This document shows, piece after piece, positions 4,339 through 36,431 of a DNA stretch of 64,000 nt. The position numbers and the translations under genes were made by a program. How positions within the stretch are numbered: the stretch's first letter is position 1; each line of letters opens with the position of its first letter. The notes under the pieces are model-generated. The model was not told the DNA's origin, searched no databases, and saw nothing but the letters and a program-made list of their open reading frames with translations. This DNA comes from Bifidobacterium breve (lineage in GTDB: Bacteria > Actinomycetota > Actinomycetes > Nanopelagicales > Nanopelagicaceae): positions 1 through 64,000 of the forward strand of contig CAMCXX010000004.1 of NCBI GenBank assembly GCA_945883755.1, written 5' to 3'.

Positions 4339-4788
4339 TTAGAGTACTGACAGCGCAGCTAATGCGCTGTCATACCCTTTATCCTCTTTACTTCCAGCAA
4401 GACCGGCGCGATCTTGTGCCTGAGATAATTGATCACACATTAGAACCCCAAAACCAATTGGCTTTGATCTACTTAAGCTAACCTGCATAACGCCATCTGT
4501 TACACCCTGGCAAACATAATCAAAGTGCGGGGTTTCACCACGAAGTACCAAGCCGACAACTACGGCAATATCAAATCCTTGATCAAATGCTAATTGCGCA
4601 GCGAGTGGTAATTCAAAGGAGCCAGCGACAGTTTTAATTGTTGGTGAGGTTATTCCAGCCACAGCTAATCCACGTTTAGCGCCAGCAACTAATGCATCAC
4701 AAATTTCTGGGTGCCATGATGCCGAAATTATTATCGCCTTTAGATTTGGGTGTTGTTTAACTTGGATTGTTGGTGCGCCATGGCTCAT
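4339..4788 (-). CDS. ribH: 6,7-dimethyl-8-ribityllumazine synthase
   Basis: RibH condenses 5-amino-6-ribitylamino-uracil with 3,4-dihydroxy-2-butanone 4-phosphate to give lumazine. The 149 residues are the normal size. Typical segments are visible: ASWHPEICDALVAGA near the N-terminus, the GSFELP motif, the LRGETPHFDYV segment that includes the catalytic histidine region, and a C-terminal part with KG and ALAAL. It is the last gene of the riboflavin operon; its ATG overlaps the ribBA stop codon by one base. Confidence 0.95.
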   Translation of the reverse strand: MSHGAPTIQVKQHPNLKAIIISASWHPEICDALVAGAKRGLAVAGITSPTIKTVAGSFELPLAAQLAFDQGFDIAVVVGLVLRGETPHFDYVCQGVTDGVMQVSLSRSKPIGFGVLMCDQLSQAQDRAGLAGSKEDKGYDSALAALSVL

Positions 4789-5978
4789 TAGATATCTCCT
4801 AGTGCGTGGTTGAGGATCTCTTTCTTACTCCTTAAGTAATTTTTATTGTGTGAATTAGCTGCACTCTGAATTGGTAGTTGATTGACCTTAACGCCAGATT
4901 TAACTAGCTGTGAAAACTTCTCTGGACTATTACTTAGCAGATCAATCTCGTTAATTTCTAAAGCTTTTAATATCAATACCGCATCCTGGTAACTTCGTTC
5001 ATCAACAGCATGTCCCAATGAGATATTTGCCTGCACCGTATTCTCACCCTTGTCTTGCAACTCATAAGCTGCAATCTTTTGAGCAAGTCCAATGCCACGA
5101 CCTTCATGATCACGCAGATAGATAATTAAGCCACTGCCCTGCTTTTCAATCAACTCAATAGATTTGAGAAGCTGATCACCGCAATCACAGCGCAGTGAGC
5201 CGAAGACATCACCAGTTAAGCACTCTGAATGAATCCGCACCAATGGCTTTGAGGTTAACTCACCAAATTTAAGGATGGCATGTTCGGTACCAAAGTTTGA
5301 GGTAAAGGTGGTGATCTGCCATAGATCATTATTAATTGGCAGTTTCGCCCAAGTAAAGCCTGGCTTAACTACTTTGTTGATTACTGGTGCAATCTCGCGC
5401 AGCTGTGAAATTGAGATAATCTCGATCTGGTGTGCTTTCGCAAACTCCACCAACTGCGCACCGCGCATCATCGATCCATCATCATTTACTAACTCACAAA
5501 TTACTGCTACTGGATTTGTATCGGTTAATTGGCAAAGCGCTACCCCAGCTTCGGTATGACCTGCTCGCGCTTGTAAACCACCATCAACTGCGACCAGTGG
5601 AAAAATATGGCCAGGTCTTGCAAAATCTGCGGCTTGCGAATTGCTGCTACCTAATGCACGCAAAGTATTGGCTCGCTCTTGGGCTGAAATTCCAGTTGTG
5701 CGATCTTTGATTCGATCAACGCTGACTGTAAATGCAGTTGAGTGGTTATCCTCATTGCGCTTAACCATTGGTGGCAGCTTTAATCGCTTGGCAGTTGCAC
5801 TATCCATAGCAGCACAAATAACTCCTGATGTGTATCGAACCATAAAGGCGATCTGCGCAGTGGTTGCAGATTGTGCCAAGAGAATTAAATCTCCCTCATC
5901 CTCTCGGTTTTTATCATCGGTAACAATTAGGAACTTTCCATCCTTAAATTGAGAAAGCGCGGTTGTTATATTACTCAT
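4788..5978 (-). CDS. ribBA: bifunctional DHBP synthase / GTP cyclohydrolase II
   Basis: This 396-residue fusion supplies both branches of riboflavin synthesis. The N-terminal half (about 1-200) is 3,4-dihydroxy-2-butanone-4-phosphate synthase, with the acidic loop DDKNREDEGDL and the RPGHIFPL and GHTEA segments. The C-terminal half (about 205-375) is GTP cyclohydrolase II, with the zinc site SECLTGDVFGSLRCDCGDQL and the RDHEGRGIGL motif. The start overlaps the ribE stop by 4 bases. Both active sites look complete by eye. Confidence 0.95.
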   Translation of the reverse strand: MSNITTALSQFKDGKFLIVTDDKNREDEGDLILLAQSATTAQIAFMVRYTSGVICAAMDSATAKRLKLPPMVKRNEDNHSTAFTVSVDRIKDRTTGISAQERANTLRALGSSNSQAADFARPGHIFPLVAVDGGLQARAGHTEAGVALCQLTDTNPVAVICELVNDDGSMMRGAQLVEFAKAHQIEIISISQLREIAPVINKVVKPGFTWAKLPINNDLWQITTFTSNFGTEHAILKFGELTSKPLVRIHSECLTGDVFGSLRCDCGDQLLKSIELIEKQGSGLIIYLRDHEGRGIGLAQKIAAYELQDKGENTVQANISLGHAVDERSYQDAVLILKALEINEIDLLSNSPEKFSQLVKSGVKVNQLPIQSAANSHNKNYLRSKKEILNHALGDI

Positions 5979-6580
5979 GATTTGTCACCACGTGCAATTA
6001 ATCGCTCTACATACTTAGCTAAGACATCTACTTCAACATTTAGGTAATCATCAACCTTTTTACTAGCTAGGTTGGTATTAGCTAAAGTTTCTGGGATCAA
6101 CCAAACTGTTACCTGATTTTTTGCATCAGCTAACTCACCCACCGTTAATGAGACGCCATCTAGTGCGATCGAGCCTTGCGCAACCACATACTTCATTAAC
6201 TTATCTGGCAATTTCAGATCTACCCGTTGCCACTTTGGCTCTTGGGCAATAGCTACAATCTGCGCTAAGCCATCCACATGGCCCTGCACAATATGCCCAC
6301 CTAGGCGATCTTGGGATTTAGTTGCTAGTTCTAGATTTACCGCATCTAGCACTACTAACTTGCCGATGCTAGATAGATTTAAGGTTTGTACCATTACATC
6401 AACCGCAAATGAGTTGTTATCAAACTCAGTAACAGTTAAACAAACACCATTTACGCTTACAGAATCTCCTACCTTAATCTCAGTCGTAATTGGCGGGCAG
6501 GTGATACTTAAGCGGGCACTGGTATCTGATTGTTCAATCTTTGCTACCTTGCCAACATATTGAATTAAACCGGTAAACAT
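5975..6580 (-). CDS. ribE: riboflavin synthase alpha chain
   Basis: This enzyme dismutates two lumazines into riboflavin and a ribitylamino-uracil. The 201 residues hold two lumazine-binding barrels in tandem: MFTGLIQYVG at the start, with SVSVNGVCLTV in the first repeat, and GHIVQGHVDG and SIALDGVSLTV marking the second. ATG overlaps the ribD stop as TAATG, implying coupled translation. Length and motifs are normal. Confidence 0.95.
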   Translation of the reverse strand: MFTGLIQYVGKVAKIEQSDTSARLSITCPPITTEIKVGDSVSVNGVCLTVTEFDNNSFAVDVMVQTLNLSSIGKLVVLDAVNLELATKSQDRLGGHIVQGHVDGLAQIVAIAQEPKWQRVDLKLPDKLMKYVVAQGSIALDGVSLTVGELADAKNQVTVWLIPETLANTNLASKKVDDYLNVEVDVLAKYVERLIARGDKS

Positions 6581-7587
6581 TACTTAACCCCCGCATTTAC
6601 TTTGGCAGGAATTTGATAGGTAAGTTTTAGATCAGATTCAATTACCTCATTAGAAATTAGAGTTAAGTCGAGGCGATCGCTGATATTTTTTATGCCAATA
6701 TCGGCGATTGAGTTAGTGCCGCTGCCAAAAATTGTAGGAGCTAGGTACAAAATTACCTCATCAATTATTCCGGCTGCTAATAATGCACTGCCCAGGATTG
6801 GACCAGATTCAACTAGCACTCGATTAAAGCCCGCCTGATTTACAAACTCAATTAAGCTTGAGATCTCTTGAGATTTAATCAGCTCTGTCGGTGCATCATT
6901 ATTCAAAATCTTTGCGGCTGGATCAATCTCACTTATTCCCATCACAATTCGGTGGGGATTTTTGCCAGTACCTTTACTGGTTAAGGTTGGGTTATCTGTA
7001 ATCACTGTTTTAGTTGAGGTTAAGATCGCATCTGCTTGGCTGCGCATCTTTGCAACATCGGCTCTGGCATCACTGGATGTGATCCACTTTGAACTGCCAT
7101 CTGCGGCAGCAACCTTGCCATCAAGGGTGGATGCAATCTTCCAGATAAATCTTGGTCGATTATTTGCTAATTTGCTTAGCCAATCTTGATTTATTACTTC
7201 GGCACTCTTTGCCAATAAGCCAGACTCAATCTTGATCCCAGCTTCACGCAGCTTAACTGCACCACCTGCTGCGATTGGGTTTGGATCAGTTACGGCATAA
7301 ATTACATTTTTAATTCCAGATTTAATGATTGCATCTGTGCAGGGTGGAGTTTTGCCAATGTGATTACATGGCTCCAGCGTTACAAATAATCTGGCGCCTT
7401 CTGGAATCTCGCCAGCATCTTTAATTGCTAAAACTTCAGCATGCTCGGCGCCTTGATGAAATCCTTCACCAATTATTTGCCCATCTTTATCTGCAATTAC
7501 TGCACCAACAATTGGGTTTGGAAAGGTTTTACCTAAGCCAAAGCAGGATAGATCAATTGCGCGTTGCATCAATTGTTGATCCTGCAT
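6580..7587 (-). CDS. ribD: bifunctional pyrimidine deaminase / reductase
   Basis: RibD performs the second and third steps of riboflavin synthesis. The N-terminal deaminase domain has the zinc-binding HAEVLAI and PCNHIGKTPPC motifs; the C-terminal reductase domain begins near 145 with an RPRFIWKIASTLDGKVA segment. The open frame extends to 7806, but the extra 73 codons lie on the FMN riboswitch and are not protein-like. I therefore start at the ATG 7585-7587, preceded by a GGAGGG Shine-Dalgarno sequence, giving 335 residues. It is first in the operon ribD-ribE-ribBA-ribH. Confidence 0.95.
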   Translation of the reverse strand: MQDQQLMQRAIDLSCFGLGKTFPNPIVGAVIADKDGQIIGEGFHQGAEHAEVLAIKDAGEIPEGARLFVTLEPCNHIGKTPPCTDAIIKSGIKNVIYAVTDPNPIAAGGAVKLREAGIKIESGLLAKSAEVINQDWLSKLANNRPRFIWKIASTLDGKVAAADGSSKWITSSDARADVAKMRSQADAILTSTKTVITDNPTLTSKGTGKNPHRIVMGISEIDPAAKILNNDAPTELIKSQEISSLIEFVNQAGFNRVLVESGPILGSALLAAGIIDEVILYLAPTIFGSGTNSIADIGIKNISDRLDLTLISNEVIESDLKLTYQIPAKVNAGVK

Positions 7588-7588
7588 T

Positions 7589-7638
7589 TTTGCCCTCCAG
7601 TTGAAAACTTTGTGTTGCGTTTTCGGGGGCAAGGCAAA
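7589..7638 (-). promoter_or_regulatory. predicted SD-sequestering helix of the ribD leader
   Basis: On the minus strand TTTGCCT (7632-7638) can pair with GGGCAAA (7589-7595), which contains the 3' part of the GGAGGG Shine-Dalgarno sequence. No T-tract terminator is seen between the aptamer and ribD, so control of translation initiation rather than transcription is inferred. Confidence 0.45.
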
Positions 7639-7676
7639 TACAAGCAGCGTGCACCCAGATTGAGTACACATCAGTT

Positions 7677-7798
7677 GGATTTCTCTCATCCGGACTTTAA
7701 CCGTCGGTTCGGGAATTTCACCCAATCCACCGGTCAATGGCTTTGACCGGGTCGCAGACTTTAACTGCCGGTTCGGAATTACACCGACCCCGAAATAC
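7677..7798 (-). promoter_or_regulatory. FMN riboswitch (RFN element)
   Basis: The minus strand shows the conserved RFN core: a GGGGTCGGTG start, an AATTCC turn, AACCGGCAGTTAAAG, a second GGGTGAAATTCCC arm, AACCGACGGTTAAAGTC, and GGATGAGAGAA. The closing P1 helix can form between GTATTTC (7792-7798) and GAAATCC (7677-7683), with one mismatch. It lies directly upstream of ribD and should repress the operon when FMN is plentiful. Confidence 0.95.
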
Positions 7799-7807
7799 AA
7801 CACCACA

Positions 7808-7813
7808 ATTCTA
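7808..7813 (-). promoter_or_regulatory. -10 box of the riboflavin operon
   Basis: TAGAAT on the minus strand places the transcript start near 7800-7802, just before the riboswitch aptamer. No good -35 element is seen. It lies back-to-back with the heliorhodopsin -10 box at 7827. Confidence 0.55.
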
Positions 7814-7826
7814 GCCCAGTTGCGGA

Positions 7827-7832
7827 TACTCT
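7827..7832 (+). promoter_or_regulatory. -10 box of the heliorhodopsin gene
   Basis: TACTCT ends 6 bases before the ATG at 7839, predicting a leaderless mRNA. The opposing riboflavin promoter is only 13 bases away, so the two polymerase footprints must overlap. Confidence 0.55.
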
Positions 7833-7838
7833 GATCAC

Positions 7839-8600
7839 ATGAAAAAAGAGATCACATCTAAGAGCCTACGTAAGTTAAATATCTACGCTGGATTGCTGCA
7901 CACAGCACAAATGGCAGCGGTCTTAATGATGAGCAGTGATTTTGCCCTGCCAATCAACGCCACATACATGGCTGGCCCACCAGGATCAACCTTCGCCCCA
8001 CAAGTAACATTATTTGAAACACCGATCGGTTTAACTGTTGCAATCTTTTTAGGATTATCAGCTCTTGCTCACTTTATTGTTGCATCACCAAGATTCTTCC
8101 CACGTTATAGCGCTGGCCTAGCTGCGCAACGAAATTACTTCCGCTGGGTTGAGTACTCAATTAGCTCATCGGTAATGGTGGTCTTAATTGCACAGGTAAC
8201 TGGTGTTGCTGATGTAGTTGCGATCATTGCATTGTTTGGTGTTAACGCATCGATGATTTTATTTGGTTGGCTACAAGAGAAGTATGAGAATCCAGGAAAT
8301 GGTGGCTGGCTACCATTTATCTTTGGCTGTATAGCTGGAGCTGTGCCATGGCTAGCTATTTTATTTTATGTATTTTCAATCGGCGGCGTTGGTGAAGAGT
8401 CAGCACCTGCCTTTGTATACTTCATCGTACTTACCATCTTCCTATTCTTTAACTCATTTGCACTTGTGCAGTGGTTGCAATACAAGAAGGTTGGCAGGTG
8501 GAGTAATTACCTAAATGGTGAGCGCACCTACATCACCTTGTCACTGCTTGCTAAATCAGCACTTGCTTGGCAGATCTTTGCCAATACGTTAATTCCATAA
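7839..8600 (+). CDS. heliorhodopsin
   Basis: This 253-residue seven-helix protein is a heliorhodopsin, the retinal-protein family that is distant from type 1 rhodopsins and sits inverted in the membrane. Diagnostic segments include NDFALP-like DFALPINATYMAGPPG (34-49), FRWVEYSISSSVM (101-113) with the counterion E105, FGVNASMILFGWLQEKYE (133-150), and SLLAKSALAWQIF (235-247) with the retinal-binding Schiff-base lysine K239. H21 and H78 match the conserved retinal-pocket histidines. Heliorhodopsins have a long photocycle and no clear pumping; a sensory or enzyme-modulating role has been proposed. No retinal-synthesis gene is in the window. A small membrane protein follows after 14 bases. Confidence 0.96.
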   Translation: MKKEITSKSLRKLNIYAGLLHTAQMAAVLMMSSDFALPINATYMAGPPGSTFAPQVTLFETPIGLTVAIFLGLSALAHFIVASPRFFPRYSAGLAAQRNYFRWVEYSISSSVMVVLIAQVTGVADVVAIIALFGVNASMILFGWLQEKYENPGNGGWLPFIFGCIAGAVPWLAILFYVFSIGGVGEESAPAFVYFIVLTIFLFFNSFALVQWLQYKKVGRWSNYLNGERTYITLSLLAKSALAWQIFANTLIP

Positions 8601-8614
8601 GGTAGAGAATTAGC

Positions 8615-8986
8615 ATGCGTGTAAATGGAGTACGTAAAACTCTTAAAGCAGGATCAGTTGTTTTTGGTGGCTCGGCGATAGTTCTCATAGTTATTCCATC
8701 AATATTTATAGATTTACTGGCGCTAGATTCAACAAATCAGATGCAATGGTCAATGCGAATGATCGGTGTGACCGTTTTTGCTCTTGCTGGAAATATGTGG
8801 CAAAACTCGGAGCAAATTTCAGTAACTCGTTTAATGCAGGTAGCCCAAGTTATGTTCATCAGTGCAGCCTCCCTGGGGATATTAACTCTATTGATACCAG
8901 CAGAGTTGACTTGGTTTACTTGTTTCTACGCCGCTATTGGCTTTGCATTTGCGATCTCTTACTTAATAAATCTGATAAAAAACTAA
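8615..8986 (+). CDS. four-helix membrane protein, likely co-transcribed with heliorhodopsin
   Basis: This 123-residue protein is not recognised. Hydrophobic segments lie at about 14-36, 47-62, 74-94 and 98-119, giving a compact four-helix protein with a basic N-terminus. The ATG follows the heliorhodopsin stop by 14 bases, with a weak AAGGTAGAG sequence upstream and no separate promoter seen, so it should share the heliorhodopsin transcript. It ends against the protease terminator hairpin on the other strand. A role as membrane partner of heliorhodopsin is only suggested by position. Confidence 0.75.
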   Translation: MRVNGVRKTLKAGSVVFGGSAIVLIVIPSIFIDLLALDSTNQMQWSMRMIGVTVFALAGNMWQNSEQISVTRLMQVAQVMFISAASLGILTLLIPAELTWFTCFYAAIGFAFAISYLINLIKN

Positions 8987-9057: not shown

Positions 9058-11157
9058 TTACGACGGAGTTGGGGTTGGCGTCGGAGTTGGGGTTGGCGTC
9101 GGAGTTGGCGCTGGGGTTGGTGCAGTTGAAGGCATAGTGATCGACATCGATTGAGCAGATGCCACAGAACTTCCAATTGAATTACTTGCCTTGACGGTAA
9201 ATGTGTAAGTAACGCCAGGAGTTAAGCCGGAAATATTTAAGCTACCGCCACCTGATTGATTAATAGTGTTAATTCGATTTCCAGGTGAAGAAGTAACTGC
9301 ATATGAAGAAATTGCTGACCAGCCATCTAACTCTGGTGCCGCAAATGAAATGGTAGCTGTATACGAATCGACGGCTACGACAGATGTGATGCTGGGTGCA
9401 CCTGGCACTGTTTGAGTTGGTGCAGTTATAAATTCTGTGTCATAACCGGTACCACTGCCAGAGAGATTAGTTGCCGTAACTAAGCAGATTAGGTATTTGC
9501 CCTTAATTTGATCAAGTACTTGCTTGGTTAAGGTTAAAGTGTTGGACCTTCCTAGAACTGTAGCGAGAGGTGAGGTATAGGAACCGTAGGAACTACTACC
9601 GAATCCCCACTCGTAACTCAGTGAATCGTAGTTAGAAGAGCTTGAACCTGTGCAAGTAGCAACCGAACCAATGCTTGGAGTCGTTCCGTTAGTGATTCCA
9701 CTGATTGAACTACTCGCTGAGTACGGAGATGAGGGTGTTGAGATATATTCGAAATCATAGGCAATTGTTTGTCCACCACCGTTTACTCCGGTCGCAGAAC
9801 AGATTAAGTATTTACCAAATAATGATCGGAGCACAGCTTCAGATAAATAAAGAGATGAAGCACTAGAAACTAAGGTTGATTTAGATGGATCAAAAGAGTA
9901 ACTAGATGCAGCTGAGTACCACGCATAGTTTGTACTTTCCACTTCGTTACTCCAGGTGACGCCACCACATGTGAGAGATGTGCCCAATTTGGCATAAGTA
10001 GAATAAGAAGTTCCCGTCATGCCTGAAATTGTTGGATAAGTTGTGAGTGAAGGTTTACTTGGAACGGTTATTGAAACACTCACGGGTAGGCTAGCGGTTC
10101 GGGAACTTCCGGTAACTTCGCAGGTGAATGTTTGACCTGCATTACTTGCAGTTAACTGAATAGATTTTGACACAATTCCCGAAGCGTTATACGGCGCAGT
10201 CCATTTGTATCTAATCTGTGTTGTATTTTCACTCCAGGTTCCAGTTTCACATGTAATGACAGATCCAACTCGGGCGGATCCAGTAATCGATGGTCTGACC
10301 GTATACGAAGGAGCTGCACGGTTTACTGATGTAGCAGCTTGGGTTGCAACCGCAACTCCAGATTTAATATCTTTTAGGAAATATGTAACCCTGGAAAAAA
10401 TCGATGGTTTACCTAAATCACACTCTCTCATTCCCCAACTTGTAACACCAATAATTACTTCAACATCATTGACAATAGTTGTTAGCGGTCCACCTGAATC
10501 TCCATTACAAGCGCCGGCGTATATTCTCTCCGACCTAATGTACTGACCAGCTGCCAGCATTGTCGTTGATGAATACCCCAATTTAGACATACTCTTTTTT
10601 GCGGCGGCATCCTGGTTAGGTATCTTTGCAGTTCGAAGGAATGTCGCACTCACGCCATTTTGATCCACACCCCAGCCATATAAAGTGTAATTCTTCAATT
10701 TATTTATCTTTGCATTCATGGCAGTAGTTGGTAATGTAATTGGCAGTATATTTGTTACTGGTTTAGTTAATTTCAGAATTCCAATATCGTTAACGATTTT
10801 CTTTGTGCTATATCTAGGATTGCGCCAAGCTGCATTTACTTCAAGTAGTGGTACATCTTCTTCGATGGTATTTGCACCTAGCTTTACAAAATAAAAACCT
10901 TGATCCATCACACAGTGGGCCGCTGTTAAAACTTTATCTGGTTCTATTAAAGAACCCGAGCAAATAAAAGTAGGTTTGTAATAATCCTCCGCTGATTCTG
11001 CATACCAGATCTGCGCTACCCATGGCTTGCTGATCGCAGCATCGGTTATCTCTGATCCATTGACCACAGCCTTTGCAGGACTTGAAATTAGTCCTAGAAC
11101 AGAGAGCGTGAGTGCAAGCGAAAGCAATAGCCTTACTAAACCGGAGATCTTCTTCAC
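9058..11157 (-). CDS. secreted trypsin-like serine protease with Ig-like and FN3 domains
   Basis: The 699-residue protein has a signal peptide (1-30) followed by an S1 (trypsin-like) protease domain. The mature start VVNGSE resembles the activation site; the triad is H81 (TAAHC), D124 (NDIGILKL) and S221 (GDSGGP). After about residue 270 come roughly three repeated Ig-like modules with paired cysteines and conserved tryptophans, then a fibronectin type III domain (about 580-675), and a C-terminal Pro-Thr repeat tail. The start is GTG, with TACACT 6 bases upstream. It is exported and probably degrades protein. No sortase motif or membrane anchor follows the tail, so attachment is unclear. Confidence 0.9.
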   Translation of the reverse strand: MKKISGLVRLLLSLALTLSVLGLISSPAKAVVNGSEITDAAISKPWVAQIWYAESAEDYYKPTFICSGSLIEPDKVLTAAHCVMDQGFYFVKLGANTIEEDVPLLEVNAAWRNPRYSTKKIVNDIGILKLTKPVTNILPITLPTTAMNAKINKLKNYTLYGWGVDQNGVSATFLRTAKIPNQDAAAKKSMSKLGYSSTTMLAAGQYIRSERIYAGACNGDSGGPLTTIVNDVEVIIGVTSWGMRECDLGKPSIFSRVTYFLKDIKSGVAVATQAATSVNRAAPSYTVRPSITGSARVGSVITCETGTWSENTTQIRYKWTAPYNASGIVSKSIQLTASNAGQTFTCEVTGSSRTASLPVSVSITVPSKPSLTTYPTISGMTGTSYSTYAKLGTSLTCGGVTWSNEVESTNYAWYSAASSYSFDPSKSTLVSSASSLYLSEAVLRSLFGKYLICSATGVNGGGQTIAYDFEYISTPSSPYSASSSISGITNGTTPSIGSVATCTGSSSSNYDSLSYEWGFGSSSYGSYTSPLATVLGRSNTLTLTKQVLDQIKGKYLICLVTATNLSGSGTGYDTEFITAPTQTVPGAPSITSVVAVDSYTATISFAAPELDGWSAISSYAVTSSPGNRINTINQSGGGSLNISGLTPGVTYTFTVKASNSIGSSVASAQSMSITMPSTAPTPAPTPTPTPTPTPTPTPS
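9062..9121 (-). repeat. tandem repeat encoding the Pro-Thr tail
   Basis: An imperfect 18-base unit, with the plus-strand pattern GGCGTCGGAGTTGGGGTT, is repeated about three times and encodes alternating Pro and Thr at the extreme C-terminus of the protease. It is a candidate for slippage length variation. Confidence 0.7.
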
Positions 11158-36219: not shown

Positions 36220-36313
36220 GGGTCATCTCCATTTCTTACAAACTTTATCTGCGTTACTTAAGCCATTTCTTTGTCAGGCTTAATAACTAGCTTCCTACTA
36301 AAAGAGAGTGGAT

Positions 36314-36325
36314 CTTCGATCGAAG
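36314..36325. repeat. palindrome in the pnp-rpsO gap
   Basis: CTTCGATCGAAG is a perfect 12-base palindrome within the 212-base gap. The same gap also has a CAAAACT/AGTTTTG stem (36369-36392). No T tract follows either. The gap should carry the pnp leader, where PNPase genes are commonly self-regulated, but no motif proves this here. Confidence 0.35.
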
Positions 36326-36431
36326 TTCACGGCTAATTTTTAATTTTCCGGAAACCACTACCGAGGACCAAAACTCTTGCAATAAAGTTTTGTACTACTC
36401 GTTAATTAACTAATTTAGCTAATTAATTTAT

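Follow-up and report, generated by a model that had tools for sequence, protein, structure and literature searches.

What heliorhodopsin (HeR) does is unsettled, and the partners tested to date have been chosen mainly by gene neighbourhood. HeR neighbourhoods were described by Bulzu et al. 2021 (PMC8612252), where COG4270 is named in Fig. 3, and ten neighbour groups were given in a later survey (PMC11109279). Neither riboflavin genes nor an FMN riboswitch is among the HeR partners in these two papers from the open-licence literature. In Trichococcus, HeR aids a photolyase (PMC9769723). Here we describe an HeR gene from a member of the Nanopelagicales that starts back-to-back with a riboflavin (rib) operon headed by an FMN riboswitch.

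The heliorhodopsin gene, the riboflavin operon and the gap between them

The window, i.e. the whole 64-kb stretch of DNA that was analysed, contains the following features at this locus.

7839 to 8600, + strand: heliorhodopsin (HeR) gene, 253 aa, predicted leaderless (PF18761, NF038020)
7827 to 7832, + strand: predicted -10 box of HeR, TACTCT, at -12 to -7 of the ATG; TANNNT position kept in relatives
7808 to 7813, - strand: predicted -10 box of the rib operon, TAGAAT; falls in the TANNNT peak of related riboswitches and is unchanged in the sister species G078
7674 to 7801, - strand: FMN riboswitch aptamer (RFN element); RF00050, 100 bits, E 5.6e-22, gathering score 66.2, model positions 1-138 of 138
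7581 to 7644, - strand: predicted expression platform, a hairpin hiding the ribD start (fold of 7673-7577)
7598 to 7593, - strand: ribD Shine-Dalgarno sequence, paired inside the predicted hairpin
7587 to 7585, - strand: ribD AUG, covered by the predicted hairpin
6580 to 7587, - strand: ribD, 335 aa (TIGR00326 equivalog, 306 bits; PF01872, PF00383)
5975 to 6580, - strand: ribE, riboflavin synthase alpha (PF00677, 4.6e-47)
4788 to 5978, - strand: ribBA (PF00926 and PF00925)
4339 to 4788, - strand: ribH, lumazine synthase (PF00885, 2.7e-40)

The HeR protein gave full-length matches above cut-off to models of heliorhodopsin (type 3 rhodopsin): 322.6 bits to PF18761 (cut-off 26.7, 1.8e-96, model positions 1-242 of 242) and 334.8 bits to the NCBIfam HeR equivalog NF038020 (cut-off 100). 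The regions SLLAKSALAWQ, with the TM7 lysine, and FRWVEYS, with the counterion glutamate, aligned with the 48C12-type HeR structure chain 9ljj; by this alignment the regions of both the retinal-binding lysine and the counterion glutamate are present. A BCD-type (Blh) dioxygenase was not found in this 81%-complete genome. Of 25 genomes of genus g1, just 2 yielded a Blh-type retinal-forming dioxygenase; the three complete, HeR-bearing genomes were not among them. Given this scarcity, retinal for HeR may come from an external source or from another enzyme.

On the opposite strand, the complete aptamer scored above the RF00050 gathering threshold for sequence and structure, and it was 100% identical in G078. 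The genes downstream follow the order ribD-ribE-ribBA-ribH. The segment between aptamer and ribD (7673-7577) had a predicted folding energy of -34.9 kcal/mol (z -3.8) that was equalled by 0 of 200 shuffled sequences. As the predicted hairpin pairs the ribD Shine-Dalgarno sequence and covers the AUG, the model suggests that ribD is controlled at the level of translation.

A gap of 37 bp separates the aptamer end from the HeR start codon. The preliminary description had placed -10 boxes on opposite strands 13 bases apart in this region, and TAGAAT and TACTCT lie exactly at 7808-7813 and 7827-7832. A sigma-70 consensus scan picked up neither promoter because the -35 boxes are absent or weak; support for the promoters was instead drawn from positional conservation across relatives. 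Among 86 distinct sequences upstream of HeR, mostly from Nanopelagicales, 46 had TANNNT at exactly -12 to -7 of the ATG and a further 13 had it at -13, whereas nearly every other upstream position had it in 0-5 loci, with 8 at -9 (binomial probability for -12 to -7 of about 1e-46). SD-like motifs were found upstream of HeR in only 8 of the 86. With a -10 box 7-12 bases before its start codon and no Shine-Dalgarno sequence, the HeR gene of the window has the layout of a leaderless message, in agreement with the earlier prediction, and HeR appears to be usually leaderless in Nanopelagicales. In 28 related FMN riboswitches the TANNNT peak fell at -9 to -13 relative to the aptamer, with a -10 box roughly 12 bases ahead of it, and the aptamer is thus the most likely start of these transcripts. 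The same start, proposed earlier for the rib mRNA, is also predicted here.

From these positions we infer transcript starts at about 7801 (- strand) and 7839 (+ strand), 38 bases apart. The 37-bp gap differs from that of G078 by six substitutions, which left TAGAAT untouched and changed TACTCT to TACCCT, still a TANNNT match. In a symmetric bidirectional promoter the -10 element is shared, the -10 elements of opposite strands overlapping. The two boxes of this locus are separated by 13 bp, and the arrangement is not of that type.

Given the predicted starts, the polymerase footprints (-40 to +20) would overlap by about 40 bp, and some mutual exclusion of the two promoters is plausible. One could then suppose that regulation acts in cis only, the promoters excluding each other so that rib transcription and that of HeR oppose one another. 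The close spacing of boxes and starts, the overlapping footprints and the retention of both -10 boxes in G078 despite six substitutions in 37 bp are consistent with such coupling. However, the arrangement is retained only in two close species, no shared operator was seen beyond the -10 boxes, and HeR commonly has tight divergent starts with unrelated neighbours. The upstream neighbour of HeR was divergent in 41 of 85 loci of the order, often at a distance of 40-110 bp; a tight divergent start is therefore ordinary for HeR in this order. We regard cis coupling as improbable.

Three further observations concern the surroundings of HeR and the window at large. G078 carries a second, distant HeR gene (L081, 3319-4089) that is 38% identical and has a clear Shine-Dalgarno sequence; the main copy has the leaderless layout. 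Between HeR and the f9 gene, positions 9058-11157 of the window encode a trypsin-like protease that bears a fibronectin type III domain and a PT-rich tail; this protease is missing from the corresponding place in G078. An operon of HeR with orf123 (8615-8986) was considered and rejected, since in G078 HeR is followed by neither orf123 nor the protease. An Actino-pnp RNA element (RF01688, 65.9 bits) lies at 36308-36372 on the - strand.

Distribution and history of the arrangement

We searched 296 genomes of the order and found HeR in 185, RibH in 173 and both in 120. Strict back-to-back adjacency was confined to this genome (G000) and G078, whose shared proteins at the locus are 93-97% identical. 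Comparison of gene order across HeR genomes, proposed in the preliminary description, thus showed that the adjacency recurs in a sister species and that its strict form is found in no other genome searched. The junction could in principle join two unrelated loci by misassembly, the source genome being 81% complete and in 38 contigs. Since the separately assembled G078 has the same junction and an identical aptamer, we consider an artefact highly improbable.

Looser proximity was wider. The rib genes lay within 6 kb of HeR in eight other genomes, five of the same genus and three elsewhere in the order. In the five (G081, G088, G071, G083 and G080) rib was divergent from HeR as in G000, across a distance of 1.4-3.3 kb occupied by a COG4270-like gene and others. 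In most other genomes of the genus the nearest divergent neighbour of HeR was a COG4270-like gene, typically at 47 bp, and rib was either 1.4-3.3 kb away or at some other site. RibH was convergent with HeR in G011 and G008 of genus g2, and in G227 of genus g11 about 5.4 kb separated HeR from rib on its upstream side. None of the 13 complete single-contig genomes with both HeR and rib had them closer than 40 kb, and no rib genes were found near HeR at 66 loci elsewhere in the phylum, in flanks reaching at most about 8 kb to either side. Overall, HeR and rib were within 10 kb of each other in 10 of the 120 genomes with both, spanning three genera and two rib lineages; random placement in a 1.25-Mb genome predicts about 1.6%. 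This excess leans against pure chance, although the events are few and related and do not constitute a clean test.

Presence and absence were also compared. In 108 near-complete genomes of the order, 49 had both HeR and RibH, 25 HeR only, 17 RibH only and 17 neither, an association that is not significant (p=0.14). When only the 25 genomes of the genus were considered, the two were associated (p=0.017), a value confounded by incomplete genomes and shared descent. The complete genomes G067 and G068 have kept HeR and lost rib. In several same-genus genomes without RibH (L084, 6480-7154; L043, from G068; L047, from G067; and others) the gene headed by the FMN riboswitch belongs to the PnuC family (NMN_transporter). 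This gene is likely to be a riboflavin importer, and the pattern suggests a switch from riboflavin synthesis to uptake in RibH-less genomes.

To follow the history of the locus, a maximum likelihood tree of Rib proteins was set against a FastTree species tree. One rib type comprised G000, G078, G071, G081 and G088, and a second comprised G080, G083 and members of genera g2, g11 and g15 (100% support each); a third type lies beside argG in a sister clade of relatives of G000. As the Rib tree and the species tree disagree, rib operons appear to have been lost and replaced or transferred. It is possible that the rib side of this locus, which shares its rib type with G071, G081 and G088, was derived from the layout of these genomes by loss of three intervening genes. 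We do not claim such descent for the whole arrangement, because the order of f27, PsiE, f6 and S51 differs. The closest relatives, G076 and G085, were compared for an empty site, and neither of these fragmented genomes showed HeR or rib: the contig of G076 stops at f9, just short of the HeR position, and that of G085 has other genes beside HflX.

Many gene families accompanied HeR at least as often as rib did. Among 88 HeR flanks, rib was present in 8-9, f15 in 22, S51 in 18, UbiA in 17, f9 in 17 and COG4270 in 15; among 80 named HeR loci, a CryB-like photolyase was present in 10 and rib in 4.

The explanation that we favour, and consider probable, is that two separately regulated accessory units were brought back-to-back by gene shuffling, with no need of functional coupling between HeR and flavin. 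HeR would be transcribed rightward into a leaderless mRNA from a promoter with only a -10 box, and the rib operon leftward from its own promoter as an mRNA starting at the FMN aptamer. FMN would most likely repress translation by allowing the hairpin to hide the ribD Shine-Dalgarno sequence and start codon. The two units would meet because both were drawn from a pool of accessory genes, shuffled in the HeR neighbourhoods of Nanopelagicales, that would include HeR, COG4270/DoxX-like, S51 peptidase, UbiA-like, PsiE, DUF393, SOUL and CryB genes, among others. The rib operons would have entered this pool more than once, with direct contact between HeR and rib arising in the ancestor of the two sister species. 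The geometry would make some promoter interference likely. Judged from its spread, the HeR-rib pairing appears to be young and not kept by relatives, and the exact junction is probably incidental.

CryB-type photolyase and the proposed flavin link

The preliminary description had further suggested a link between retinal light sensing and flavin supply. The comparison did not establish this: strict adjacency occurs in two sister species only, G067 and G068 keep HeR without rib, HeR and RibH are not significantly associated across the order (p=0.14), and the 66 other actinobacterial HeR loci are without rib. A link between flavin and HeR is nevertheless possible, and its best support comes from the proximity of HeR, CryB and rib in genus g2, which is a different genus from that of the window.

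A gene for a CryB-type (6-4) photolyase is found in genus g2 divergent from a rib operon led by an FMN riboswitch (L427, 4116-9252; L430, 1-5304; L405, 3-4188). The CryB-like proteins matched the structures PhrB 4dja and CryB 3zxs. G001 and G021 have CryB and the FMN-rib operon pointing away from each other. In G011, one contig ends with HeR-RibH-RibBA and another contig carries RibBA-RibE-RibD-riboswitch followed by CryB-DUF393-COG4270; the two RibBA pieces overlap in query coverage. No CryB-like match was found within the 64-kb window.

DMRL is the product of RibH. PhrB, a prokaryotic (6-4) photolyase, has DMRL as a chromophore (PMC4619345). Its class is documented to use FAD and DMRL, both of which stem from the riboflavin pathway. 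In A. photophilum, rib and phrB belong to one expression group, heR is up in the dark and rib genes are up early in the light, and the locus tags place heR at a long distance from the rib cluster (PMC8591293).

These observations could be read as a photobiology cluster, in which rib supplies an FAD precursor and DMRL for CryB-type (6-4) photorepair and HeR modulates one of the enzymes in light. The chromophore of PhrB (PMC4619345), the effect of Trichococcus HeR on photolyase (PMC9769723) and the shared expression group of rib and phrB in A. photophilum (PMC8591293) fit this reading, as do the reports of HeR with photolyase and glutamine synthetase, a model for enzyme modulation. So do the CryB-like gene in 10 of 80 HeR flanks and the proximity of CryB and rib in G001, G021 and G011. 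Against it, the window has no CryB-like match, proximity of rib and HeR is limited to some members of a single order, HeR is retained where rib has been lost, and heR and rib of A. photophilum differ in their time courses and lie at distant loci (PMC8591293). We consider this reading unlikely. Also rather unlikely is a broader form, in which HeR, rib and CryB make up a shifting Nanopelagicales cluster, HeR light-tuning the supply of flavin and DMRL to photorepair, and the pair described here is a stripped-down version.

Repeated proximity of HeR, CryB and rib within the order deserves a focused test. If the association is functional, lumazine synthase and CryB are concrete, assayable candidates in very abundant freshwater bacteria. 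If it is not, the locus clearly illustrates that a tight divergent arrangement can mislead functional inference where genomes are shuffled and streamlined.

Comparison with known systems

The riboswitch itself is ordinary. It resembles the FMN riboswitches (RFN, RF00050) that head bacterial rib operons in its full aptamer, rib gene content and predicted start-sequestering hairpin, and only the back-to-back neighbour is unusual. As in the published surveys of HeR neighbourhoods (PMC8612252, PMC11109279), HeR of a freshwater actinobacterium lies beside accessory redox and photobiology genes, and the peptidase, DUF393 and GSDH genes of the HeR transcripts in those surveys resemble genes around HeR here. 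In contrast to those cases, the neighbour described here is on the opposite strand and outside the HeR operon. The Trichococcus HeR-photolyase system (PMC9769723) is alike in that HeR is genomically linked to flavin-dependent DNA repair. There, the photolyase gene belongs to the operon of HeR and its product was assayed for interaction; here the neighbour is an operon for flavin biosynthesis.
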